A stretch of DNA of 64,000 nucleotides from positions 4,712,001-4,776,000 of the forward strand of contig NZ_CP087164.1 of the NCBI RefSeq assembly GCF_021172045.1, given 5' to 3'. This document shows positions 33,981 to 38,018 of the stretch, in pieces. A program made the position numbers and the translations under genes. The number at the start of each line of letters is the position of its first letter. Position 1 is the first letter of the stretch. The stretch comes from Capillimicrobium parvum. GTDB taxonomy: Bacteria; Actinomycetota; Thermoleophilia; Solirubrobacterales; Solirubrobacteraceae. Below the pieces are notes generated by a model. That model had not been told where the DNA came from. It worked only from the letters and a program-made list of their open reading frames with translations, and searched no databases.

Positions 33981-35651
33981 ATGCGCTTGTCCCATCTGCT
34001 CGCTGCCGCGGGCTCGCTCCCGGTTCTCGCCATCGCTCCCTCCGCCGCCCACGCGGCGTTCGGGGTGACGACGCTCGCCGCGACGCCGGGCTCCACGCAG
34101 GCCGGCGGCCACGCCGACTTCACGCTCGACATGAGCTTCGCCGCGGGCGACGACGTGCGCGACCTCGTCATCCACCTGCCGAAGGGCTTCGTGGGCAATC
34201 CGCAGGCGGCGACGGTGTGCACGCAGGCGCAGTTCGCATCCGACAAGTGCCCGTCCGGCGCCCAGGTCGGCACGACCACCGTGACCGCGACCGTGACGCC
34301 CAACGGGATGCTGCCCGCGGTCACGCAGACGCAGGCCGTCTCCGGACAGGTCTTCAACCTCCAGCCGCGGGCCGGGGAGCCGGCGCGCCTCGGCGTGCTG
34401 CTGCCCGCCACCTCGACCGGCGGCGGGCTCGTCACCACGCGGCCGATCCGCCTGCAGTCGGTGGCGACCGTCCGCACGAACGGCGACTACGGGCTCGACT
34501 CGACGATGGCGAACCTGCCGCGCACCGTGGAGTCGAACGTCGGCTCGCTGACGAGCCACATCGACCGCATCCAGCTGACGCTGCGCAGCCGCGCGCCCGG
34601 CGCTTCGCTGCCGTTCCTGACGAACCCGACGACCTGCACCCCGGCGACGACCAGCGTCGATGCGACCTCCTACGCGGGCGCGCGCGGGTCCAACGCCTCG
34701 ACGTTCACGCCGACGGGCTGCGACGCGGTGCCATACGACCCGAAGGTCACCGCGACGCTGGACGGGGCCGGCGTGCACCAGCACCCGAAGCTCACGACGG
34801 TCGTCAGCCAGCAGGCGGACGAGGCGACGAGCTCGCGGGTCGTGGTCACGCTGCCGTCCGGCATCGGGCCCAACCTCGCCGCCCTGTCGAACCCGTGCTC
34901 GTCGGAGGCCTTCCAGTCCGGGGACTGCCCGGACAGCGCCAAGGTCGGCTCGGGCACCGCGGTCACCCCGCTGCTCGCCGACCCGCTCTCCGGCCCGGTG
35001 TATCTCGTGACCGCCCCCAGCGGCGGGCTGCCCCAGCTCGGCATCGCGCTGGCGGGCCTGCTGCCCGTGAAGCTGCGGGCGTCCGTGTCGGTGGGCTCGG
35101 GCACGCGTCTCGTCTCGACCCTCGACGGGCTGCCCGACGTCCCGCTGTCCTCGTTCACGCTGGTCCTCGACGGGGGCGACAGGGGTCTGCTCGTCTCGGG
35201 CCTGGACCTCTGCGCCGCCCAGCCGACGGTCGACGCGGTCTTCACGTCGCAGTCGGGCATGGAGCGCACCGCGACCGCGCCGGCCACGGCGACGAACTGC
35301 GCCCCCGATCCGTCGGGCTCCGGCCCCACCGGTGGCGGCGGTGGCGTGAAGAAGCGGCGCCCGAAGGTGACCGCCCGGCTGTCGAGGGCCGGCACGCTCG
35401 TGGTCGTCGCGCGCGTGCCGAAGGGCGCGTCGAAGCTGCGCCGCGTGCGCGTCTCGCTGCCCAAGGGCCTGAAGGCGGACGCCGGCCGGCGGCTGCGGGT
35501 CAACCGCGCGAAGGGCGCCCGCTCGATCAGGCTGCGCGTCGCCGCCAGGCACCTGACCGGTACGACGATGTCGAAGAAGGCGAAGGTCACGGTGGTCGCC
35601 CGGACGGCCGCGGGGCGGACGTACGAGGTGCGGGCCAAGCTGCGCCGCTGA
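33981..35651 (+). CDS. Large secreted protein with repeated beta domains, unknown function
   Basis: 556 aa. Signal peptide MRLSHLLAAAGSLPVLAIA...AHA. Two long beta-rich repeats each contain a conserved pattern: LPKGFVGNPQAATVCTQAQFASDKCPSGAQVGT (about 69-100) and LPSGIGPNLAALSNPCSSEAFQSGDCPDSAKVGSG (about 290-325), each with a paired Cys. A Gly-rich linker and a basic C-terminal beta domain follow (about 455-556, KVTARLSRAGTLVVVARVPKGASKLRRVRV). Such proteins are common and uncharacterised in Solirubrobacterales. It probably stays at the cell surface. Confidence 0.75.
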   Translation: MRLSHLLAAAGSLPVLAIAPSAAHAAFGVTTLAATPGSTQAGGHADFTLDMSFAAGDDVRDLVIHLPKGFVGNPQAATVCTQAQFASDKCPSGAQVGTTTVTATVTPNGMLPAVTQTQAVSGQVFNLQPRAGEPARLGVLLPATSTGGGLVTTRPIRLQSVATVRTNGDYGLDSTMANLPRTVESNVGSLTSHIDRIQLTLRSRAPGASLPFLTNPTTCTPATTSVDATSYAGARGSNASTFTPTGCDAVPYDPKVTATLDGAGVHQHPKLTTVVSQQADEATSSRVVVTLPSGIGPNLAALSNPCSSEAFQSGDCPDSAKVGSGTAVTPLLADPLSGPVYLVTAPSGGLPQLGIALAGLLPVKLRASVSVGSGTRLVSTLDGLPDVPLSSFTLVLDGGDRGLLVSGLDLCAAQPTVDAVFTSQSGMERTATAPATATNCAPDPSGSGPTGGGGGVKKRRPKVTARLSRAGTLVVVARVPKGASKLRRVRVSLPKGLKADAGRRLRVNRAKGARSIRLRVAARHLTGTTMSKKAKVTVVARTAAGRTYEVRAKLRR

Positions 35652-35677: not shown

Positions 35678-35705
35678 GAAGCCCCCGTCGCGTGACGGGG
35701 GCTTC
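35678..35705. terminator. Bidirectional terminator hairpin, copy of the tRNA-Pro terminator
   Basis: GAAGCCCCCGT pairs with ACGGGGGCTTC around a short loop. It lies between the convergent secreted-protein and Kelch genes and can end both. It is nearly identical to the hairpin just past tRNA-Pro at 37903-37928. Confidence 0.7.
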
Positions 35706-35719
35706 GTTCAATCGGGGCG
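35678..35719. repeat. Distal copy of tRNA-Pro 3' end plus terminator (att-like repeat)
   Basis: 35691-35719 (29 bp) is identical to 37914-37942. Allowing one CG dinucleotide gap, the match extends to the whole 35678-35719 versus 37903-37942. It includes the last 8 nt of the tRNA (CGCCCCGA read on the minus strand) and the terminator. A duplicated tRNA 3' end at the far side of a segment is the usual trace of site-specific integration. Confidence 0.7.
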
Positions 35720-37902
35720 ATGGTTCAAGTCGCGGCTCGCTGGCGCGTGCCGGGGAGGGTGCCGATATGTGCCATCCCGGCCGGGCCCGGTCGCTCAGCC
35801 GCGCACCAGGGGAGCGGACGCGGTCACGTTCAGACCGGCGCTTACGAACTGGCTGGTGATCCGCACGGCGCGCACTTTGTCGCCGTGCAGCAGCTTCTTG
35901 CCGCGGCTCGTGACATGCAGGAGGAGGTGTGCGGGGCCGGCTGACGTGGATCGCACACGCCCGTAGGCGATCGTGTGTCTGCGGTTGCCGGTGGTATGCA
36001 GGCGCACATGTTCTACGCCGGCGGCAGGCAACGTGATGTGCATCGTCGCCGCGCCGGTTCGGCGTAGCTTGCGGATCGCGCCGCGCAATCGCTTCTGGTC
36101 GGTGTGGAGCTGGGCGTAGACGGCTTGCCTGGTGAGTCCCGCGGAGCGGCCTTCGTGCCGGGGCGGCGGCGTGCCGGACTCATTGGATGACGGCGGCGGC
36201 GGGGGATGCGTCTCGTCATCGCCTTGTGCGGTGCTGGCGAAGGCGCGCACGTCGATGGTCGCCGTCGCCGACGCGGTCTGGCCGCCCGCCGCGGTGACAT
36301 GCACACCGACGCGGTACAGGCCCGGCTCGGGGAACGCATGGGCCACGCGCGGCCCGCCCGGCGTTTCGTAGCGTTCGTCGCCGTCGAGATCCCACACGAA
36401 GCTCAGCGCTAGGTCGCTGGGATCGCGCGATCCTGAGGCGTCGAGGATCACATCGCCGCCGGCCACCGCGGGCAACGCGCCGGTATCGAGGACCGCGTGA
36501 GGCGCGGGGGGCAGCGTGAGGATCTCCGCACTGGCGAGCGGCCGGCGATCGCGGCCGCTGCCGCCGGCCACGAGGACGCGCCCGTCTGACATCAGCGTCG
36601 CGGCATGGCCGCGGCGCTGCGACTGCATCGCCGGGCCGGGCGACCAGGCGTTCGTCGCGGGGTCGTAGAACTCGGTGGTTGCCAACGCGGCACTCTGCGC
36701 GTTCACCCCACCGGCCACGAGCACGCGGCCATCGCGCAACAGCGTCGCCGTGTGCAACGCGCGGGGCGTGCTCATCGGCGGACCCTCAACCCACGCGTTG
36801 GTCGCCGGATCGTAGATTTCGGTGTCGGCGATCACCGGCCCGATGTTGTCGGACCCACCACCAGTGACGACGACCCGCCCGTCGGCCAACCGCGTCGCGG
36901 TGTTCCCGACCCGCCCGACGAGCATGTCGGGCGCGGCAATCCAGTCGTCGGGTTCCGGCGCAAAGAGAAACGACTGCGGGCTGCATCCGCACTCGAACTC
37001 GTTGGTGCCGCCCGCCACGAGCACCCGGGCATCGTCCAGCAGCGTCGCGGTCAGCCGCTCGCGGCCGTCGGGCATGTCGGGCAACGCCGACCAGGCGTTC
37101 GTGGCGGGGTTGTAGGCCTGCACGGTGGCGACTTCACTCGGGCGACCGGCCGTGCCGCCGAGTGCGAGCACGCGTCCGTCGGCGAGTCGCACGGTCCCAC
37201 CCGGCCACTGGTAAGTGGTCATCGGGCCGGTCCATGACCACGTGTCGCCGACGGCGTCGTACACGCGCGCGCGCAGGTCGTCAACCGTCTGCGGCCCCGA
37301 GATGAGCACCCGGTCATCCGCAAGCAGCGTCCCGAGGCCCCCATTCGAGCCGGGGCCCGACGCCGATCGCGACCACGTCCGCGTTGCCGGCTCGAAGATG
37401 TCGACGTCGATCCCACCAGGGACCGCTCCGGATCCCCCCGGCACGAGCACCCGGCCATCACGCAGCACCAACGCGTCGGTTCCTGCCCGGGGCTTGGTCA
37501 TCGTCCCCGCGTCCGACCACGCCGCGGGCGCGGCACCCGCGGTCACGGGCGTCCACACCACATACGCGGTCATGAGCACGCCCACGAACATGACCGGCAT
37601 CGGCAACAGGCGCCACCACGGCGCCAAGATCCTCATGACCACGATACGCACCGCACGCACGCCAGCCGACAGGCAACCGTTCTGGTTCTTCACCCGTGAC
37701 CGTCGCGTCGATCGCTGTGCGGGTAGGCCAACCAGAACGCCCGGCCCGCACATACCTACCGTCACTGCGATGCGGCCGGCGATCTCTGGCCTCGAGGATT
37801 TTGCTAGCGACGCGACCCTGAGCGCGCTCCGTTGCATCAGTCGCCACGGCGAAGGCCGCGACGGATTGCTACCTCATTACCTCGAGCTTCTGCCAGAACG
37901 AC
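35720..37902. mobile_element. Small tRNA-Pro-bounded segment (putative mini-island) carrying a Kelch gene
   Basis: A 2.2-kb segment lies between the intact tRNA-Pro (with its terminator) and a second copy of the tRNA 3' end plus terminator. Its base use looks less GC-extreme than the flanks. It holds one gene, the Kelch/PKD protein, and no integrase. The 298 nt between the Kelch start and the tRNA contain nothing I can name. It could be a non-autonomous or decayed integrative element. A simple terminator duplication is the alternative. Confidence 0.35.
35795..37636 (-). CDS. Kelch-repeat/PKD-domain secreted protein
   Basis: 613 aa from MRILAPWWRLLPMPVMF, with an N-terminal membrane anchor or signal (about 8-25). 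Roughly seven Kelch-type blades follow, each with a DGRVLVAGG turn and a WS.GPAM-like block (propeller to about 395). Then comes a PKD domain (LDASGSRDPSDLALSFVWDLDGD), a Pro-rich linker PPPPPSSNESGTPPPR and a basic C-terminal domain. A TATCGT box is 4 nt before the ATG; an open frame extends further upstream. It sits alone in the tRNA-bounded segment. Probably an extracellular binding protein. Confidence 0.82.
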   Translation of the reverse strand: MRILAPWWRLLPMPVMFVGVLMTAYVVWTPVTAGAAPAAWSDAGTMTKPRAGTDALVLRDGRVLVPGGSGAVPGGIDVDIFEPATRTWSRSASGPGSNGGLGTLLADDRVLISGPQTVDDLRARVYDAVGDTWSWTGPMTTYQWPGGTVRLADGRVLALGGTAGRPSEVATVQAYNPATNAWSALPDMPDGRERLTATLLDDARVLVAGGTNEFECGCSPQSFLFAPEPDDWIAAPDMLVGRVGNTATRLADGRVVVTGGGSDNIGPVIADTEIYDPATNAWVEGPPMSTPRALHTATLLRDGRVLVAGGVNAQSAALATTEFYDPATNAWSPGPAMQSQRRGHAATLMSDGRVLVAGGSGRDRRPLASAEILTLPPAPHAVLDTGALPAVAGGDVILDASGSRDPSDLALSFVWDLDGDERYETPGGPRVAHAFPEPGLYRVGVHVTAAGGQTASATATIDVRAFASTAQGDDETHPPPPPSSNESGTPPPRHEGRSAGLTRQAVYAQLHTDQKRLRGAIRKLRRTGAATMHITLPAAGVEHVRLHTTGNRRHTIAYGRVRSTSAGPAHLLLHVTSRGKKLLHGDKVRAVRITSQFVSAGLNVTASAPLVRG

Positions 37903-37928
37903 GAAGCCCCCGTCGTGACGGGGGCTTC
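37903..37928 (-). terminator. Terminator of tRNA-Pro
   Basis: A GAAGCCCCCGT...ACGGGGGCTTC hairpin begins 6 nt past the tRNA 3' end on the minus strand, followed by GTCGTTCT. It is the proximal copy of the hairpin at 35678-35705. Confidence 0.65.
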
Positions 37929-37942
37929 GTTCAATCGGGGCG
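37903..37942. repeat. Proximal att-like repeat (tRNA-Pro 3' end plus terminator)
   Basis: Partner of 35678-35719: 29 bp identical (37914-37942), longer if a CG gap is allowed. It ends inside the acceptor stem of tRNA-Pro. Confidence 0.7.
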
Positions 37943-38006
37943 CCCGGATTCGAACCGGGGACCTCACCGACCCGAACGGTGCGCGCTACCAGGCTGCGCC
38001 ACGCCC
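37935..38006 (-). tRNA. tRNA-Pro(CGG), 72 nt, two bases short at the D/anticodon stem junction
   Basis: Acceptor arms CGGGGCG/CGCCCCG with discriminator A, D-loop AGCCTGGTA, anticodon loop TTCGGGT (anticodon CGG, reads CCG) and T arm CCCGG-TTCGAAT-CCGGG are all clear. The usual actinobacterial form has GGTAGCGCG before a 5-bp anticodon stem. Here GGTAGCGC runs straight into ACCG, so a GC dinucleotide is missing and base 26 plus one stem pair are lost. CCA is not encoded. A TAGACT -10 box lies at 38019-38024. It could be functional, a pseudogene or an indel error. Confidence 0.85.
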
Positions 38007-38018
38007 CGATGAGGGTGC

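Follow-up and report, generated by a model that had tools for sequence, protein, structure and literature searches.

The 2.2-kb segment that follows tRNA-Pro(CGG) in this genome is probably the decayed remnant of an integrase-dependent island, retaining attL (arms and core), one cargo gene, and the core of attR. Position numbers refer to the window, i.e., the whole 64,000-nucleotide stretch of DNA that was analyzed, and the features involved are as follows.

37934 to 38009, minus strand: intact tRNA-Pro, anticodon CGG, the putative integration target (ARAGORN)
37903 to 37942, minus strand: tRNA-side att core, consisting of the last 8 nt of the tRNA and the hairpin terminator; direct repeat with 35678-35719 (40/42)
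37876 to 37883, minus strand: damaged tandem partner of the arm-like site, GAGGTAAT, 3 nt short and abutting the intact copy
37865 to 37875, minus strand: intact arm-like site, GAGGTAGCAAT, 60 nt inside the tRNA end; match to GAGGTASCAAT
35795 to 37636 (likely CDS), minus strand: sole cargo gene, encoding a Kelch propeller and PKD domain protein of ~613 aa (ORF, Pfam)
35678 to 35719, minus strand: distal att core, a copy of the 3' 8 nt of the tRNA and of the terminator, lying between two convergent genes

In a search for the direct repeat over the 38 kb that follow the tRNA, 37903-37942 aligned with 35678-35719 at 40 of 42 positions (E 1e-12), placing the distal copy 2.2 kb downstream of tRNA-Pro(CGG). 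Two blocks make up the repeat, one of 29 identical bp (35691-35719 = 37914-37942) and one of 13 (35678-35690 = 37903-37915), and a 2-nt CG indel in the loop of the terminator lies between them. The repeat contains CGCCCCGA, the last 8 nt of tRNA-Pro, together with the whole hairpin; the first-pass annotation had thus been correct in describing a duplicated tRNA end and entire terminator (29 identical bp, or about 40 bp with one CG gap), both of which are present in two copies. Strong hairpins are predicted in each copy (-26 and -28.5 kcal/mol, z about -6). The 42-bp duplication is unique: no third copy with up to three mismatches was found in the window (nor any in shuffled sequence), and there was no further copy at E<=1e-3 in the 5.95-Mb genome, where the copies of the 29-bp repeat near integrases that the annotation had suggested looking for did not turn up. 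Only 8 nt of the tRNA are part of the repeat, whereas at least 20 nt are included in most other islands of the genome, a difference that speaks against the reading as an island remnant. A decayed T-loop in front of the distal core was considered and rejected, as the alignment did not exceed chance: 48% of random stretches reached an equally high score. Two terminator-type hairpins, both located where a terminator is useful, could also have arisen had the tRNA terminator been duplicated or copied locally, no integrase being involved, and then been kept since both copies terminate. We regard this as highly improbable, because it leaves unexplained both an arm-like site found otherwise only at an integrase island and the same layout at 11 other tRNA genes.

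The Kelch/PKD gene (Kelch_6, E 1.8e-29; PKD_4, E 8e-10) is the single convincing gene between the repeats, as judged from the ORF list and Pfam and as first annotated. Its reading frame is open from 37837; the start and an apparent signal peptide were judged by eye. That the segment carries no integrase was also upheld: PF00589 had no match in or near the window, tblastn with 14 integrases revealed no remnant in the segment (the best match, E 0.01 over 30 aa, is not credible), and a low-complexity-filtered integrase search of the whole window gave no match. Without an integrase gene inside its boundaries, the segment is not an autonomous element, prophage, or AICE. The AICE pSAM2 has tRNA-Pro as its target. 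Many AICEs of actinomycetes use tyrosine integrases to insert at tRNA gene 3' ends (PMC3218068), and the segment resembles them in target class, integrase class, and actinobacterial host, but its content of one Kelch/PKD gene leaves it lacking Int, Rep, and Tra genes. The possibility that the Kelch gene is itself a phage or plasmid gene was dropped; no close homologue was found in the viral, phage, and plasmid collections, where the matches were distant (best ~39% identity in plasmids and 31% in phages), and none in viral contigs was confirmed.

The first-pass annotation had also described the base use of the segment as less extreme than that of its flanks. Within the window this is the case, as the GC content is 70.6% against a mean of 73.0%, and the tetranucleotide distance is 0.304 against 0.191 (sd 0.024) for the rest of the window, but it does not hold genome-wide: among 493 stretches of the same length elsewhere, 12.6% are at least as deviant in tetranucleotides and 32% are as low in GC. 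Stretches around another Kelch gene of the genome have tetranucleotide distances of 0.22-0.40, compared with 0.30 for the segment. Because the deviation from the window is ordinary against these 493 stretches, we abandoned the argument from foreign composition, which is a non-obligatory feature of tRNA genomic islands. A composition that is not foreign, another Kelch gene elsewhere in the genome, and a gap of only 76 nt between the end of the Kelch gene and the distal core, where other islands have their distal arms, would all suit a composite in which an old island left the att scars and the Kelch gene is chromosomal, or was inserted later, rather than being the original cargo. This is quite unlikely given that the gene lies entirely between the two cores, has no match at E<=1e-20 in the three genus members, and does not adjoin tRNA-Pro in the relatives examined.

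It is the arm-like word, overlooked in the first-pass annotation, that as far as sequence can tell settles the choice in favor of a segment derived through an integrase. The N-terminal domain of such integrases is established to bind arm-type sequences (PMC2951348), and the arm-like site at the tRNA end is in the expected place and orientation, on the same strand as tRNA-Pro. Only five matches to GAGGTASCAAT occur in the 5.95-Mb genome, four of them in the att regions of the tRNA-Gly locus and the fifth in the window, whereas the reversed control gave none; the chance of a match within 150 nt is about 5e-6. The intact and damaged copies abut one another just as in GAGGTACCAATGAGGTACCAAT of the tRNA-Gly island. 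The exact two-copy pattern was not found among 298 relatives, and the exact pair is therefore local. A match to the arm word in viral contig L198 was set aside as a coding repeat of an AT-rich phage and unrelated. Inward of the distal core, no arm-like site was found from -170 to -20 nt; a candidate distal pair in GGCACATATCGGCACC was in the wrong position, weak, and judged by eye only, and it was rejected.

The tRNA-Gly(CCC) island (L169, G000:C1:1647101-1667100) is about 13 kb long and encodes a tyrosine integrase, an AAA/Toprim protein, and a YaaC-like protein. Its arm-like word is GAGGTACCAAT, and such words are present at both ends. Like the window segment, the island has a core that spans the tRNA end and the terminator, with GAGGTASCAAT words inside attL; unlike that segment, it encodes an integrase, has arm-like sites at each end, and is targeted to tRNA-Gly. 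A second segment at the same locus, of 2.4 kb, contains a C-terminal integrase remnant 78-91% identical to the adjoining integrase. Here too the distal core begins 8 nt before the tRNA end and arm-like words are found at the tRNA-side end only, both as in the window segment, which differs in having no such integrase remnant. From its sequence, the 2.4-kb segment looks like a half-way stage of decay. Related words appear to accompany related integrases, other genera included: GAGGTAACAAT precedes the tRNA-Val core of a viral contig (L200, IMG/VR 3300032160_000416) whose integrase is 61% identical to that of the tRNA-Gly island, GGTAGCAAT precedes the tRNA core in G012 (62% identical), GGTACCAATCGAGTACCAAT belongs to the tRNA-Val(GAC) island of the same genome (about 45% identical), and GCTACCAAT occurs twice in G213 (50% identical). 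No similar word was seen near several other relatives of the tRNA-Gly integrase in the stretch that was read.

For each of the 46 tRNA genes located, the following 20 kb were scanned for a second copy of that gene's 3' end. Besides the tRNA-Pro of the window, 11 tRNA genes have such repeats 4.8-18 kb downstream, viz., Arg(ACG), Met, Thr(GGT), Gly(CCC), Val(CAC), Val(GAC), Cys, Ser(TGA), His, Glu(CTC), and Leu(GAG); a repeat of tRNA-Ser(cga) was omitted from the count, since it falls on the next tRNA-Ser gene and is not an att site. The 3'-end repeats other than that of tRNA-Gly(CCC) are at loci L161, L163, L167, L170, L174, L175, L178, L179, L184, and L194. Most of the 11 islands have paired words of ~10-12 nt inside both ends, with a period mostly of 11-12, which is how the arm-type sites of an integrase are laid out. 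In nine islands a word of 10-29 nt is common to both inner ends, compared with at most 10 nt for mismatched island pairs. The end words vary between islands, examples being AGAGGACAACC, CCGTTCCCAC, and GCGCGACAA.

Genes for tRNA-Pro serve as integration sites in this order, as seen from the 3'-end repeats of relatives. The element in G030, a family member (L090, G030:C5:17001-35812), has a 43-bp att repeat ~16.5 kb from tRNA-Pro(CGG), the same tRNA as in the window. It is prophage-like: its tyrosine integrase gene adjoins the tRNA, and it encodes a tape-measure-like protein. In G028, tRNA-Pro(TGG) has two repeats. In G039 and G045 (L056, L057) a partial second tRNA-Pro 3' end (43 and 63 bp) starts ~50 nt downstream of the gene, and these tandem ends are like scars of past integration events. 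G036 (L055:6400-10000) has a 3.6-kb segment between 24-nt repeats of nearly the same part of the tRNA-Pro end; it contains genes for RES and Fic/Doc-like toxins and a MazE-like antitoxin, and a tRNA-Glu gene, with no integrase among the listed ORFs. The upstream side of tRNA-Pro is conserved in the family (an AMP-binding acyl-CoA ligase-like protein, a NIF3-like protein, and often a sigma factor), but in none of about 40 relatives are the downstream genes of the window beside tRNA-Pro(CGG); the left-flank genes, one of which spans 33981-35651 in the window, are at other places or missing. The nearest genus members, none of which is a close strain, were compared for an empty site and have no matching left flank. 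No relative examined has the gene order of the window, and the arrangement that was originally held to count against integration, the same order with both repeats in distant relatives, was likewise not seen in any of them. The other such arrangement, no difference in composition along with widespread terminators of this type, does not fully apply, as the repeat has no further copy in the genome. The proposal of integration targeted to a tRNA gene is thus well supported by a unique repeat, an arm-like site in common with the integrase-bearing tRNA-Gly island, the use of tRNA-Pro by elements of relatives, and the att-like repeats at 11 other tRNA genes.

We suggest that an integrase from the clade represented today in the tRNA-Gly(CCC) island recognized the GAGGTASCAAT sites and joined the attP of the element to tRNA-Pro, which would have left a working tRNA on one side and a terminator on each. 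The integrase and distal arms may then have been lost by deletion, with the Kelch/PKD gene retained. Decay is preferred because nine other islands have distal arm-like sites where the window segment has none, and because the proximal partner is damaged. The segment is most likely immobile now. The first-pass annotation had raised the possibility of a minimal non-autonomous island or a cargo cassette mobilized in trans, and this is not supported, given the absence of distal arm-like sites and damage to one of the two proximal ones. The cores nonetheless agree at 95% of positions, one of the arm-like sites has stayed intact, and the genome also encodes an integrase from the matching clade; a resident integrase, e.g., that of the tRNA-Gly island, could in principle still recombine the att cores with the Kelch gene as cargo, either in trans or, once a related element had accreted, in cis. 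That the cassette is still mobile by some such route seems unlikely, for in addition to the state of its arm-like sites the two cores have already diverged by an indel, the genome has no second copy of the segment, and the collections of viral, phage, and plasmid sequences have no close homologue of the Kelch gene. The specific version, a one-gene tRNA-Pro cassette still mobilized in trans by the tRNA-Gly integrase via shared arm sites, is very unlikely; were it true, arm specificity, and not core identity, would set which cassettes an integrase serves.

A CIME is an element that lacks integration and transfer genes but has attL and attR (PMC5704250), and 15 ssrA islands of Dehalococcoides that lack an integration module have been proposed as possible CIMEs (PMC3146451). 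Like these, the decayed remnant at tRNA-Pro lies at the 3' end of an RNA gene (tRNA or tmRNA) with its cargo enclosed by two att cores, lacks an integrase, and has related autonomous islands in the same genome. It differs in being very small, with one gene, in having no sign of past conjugation genes, and in the apparent loss of its distal arm-like sites, which makes att function doubtful. Integration and transfer genes are indeed lacking and both att cores are kept, but without the distal arm-like sites the segment is at most CIME-like.

The segment looks like an ordinary decayed representative of a known class, in a genome with about a dozen tRNA-bounded islands: 12 of the 46 tRNA genes, or about a quarter, have island or att-scar repeats. 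A short, integrase-free segment can thus be linked to an integrase clade through an arm-like word alone.
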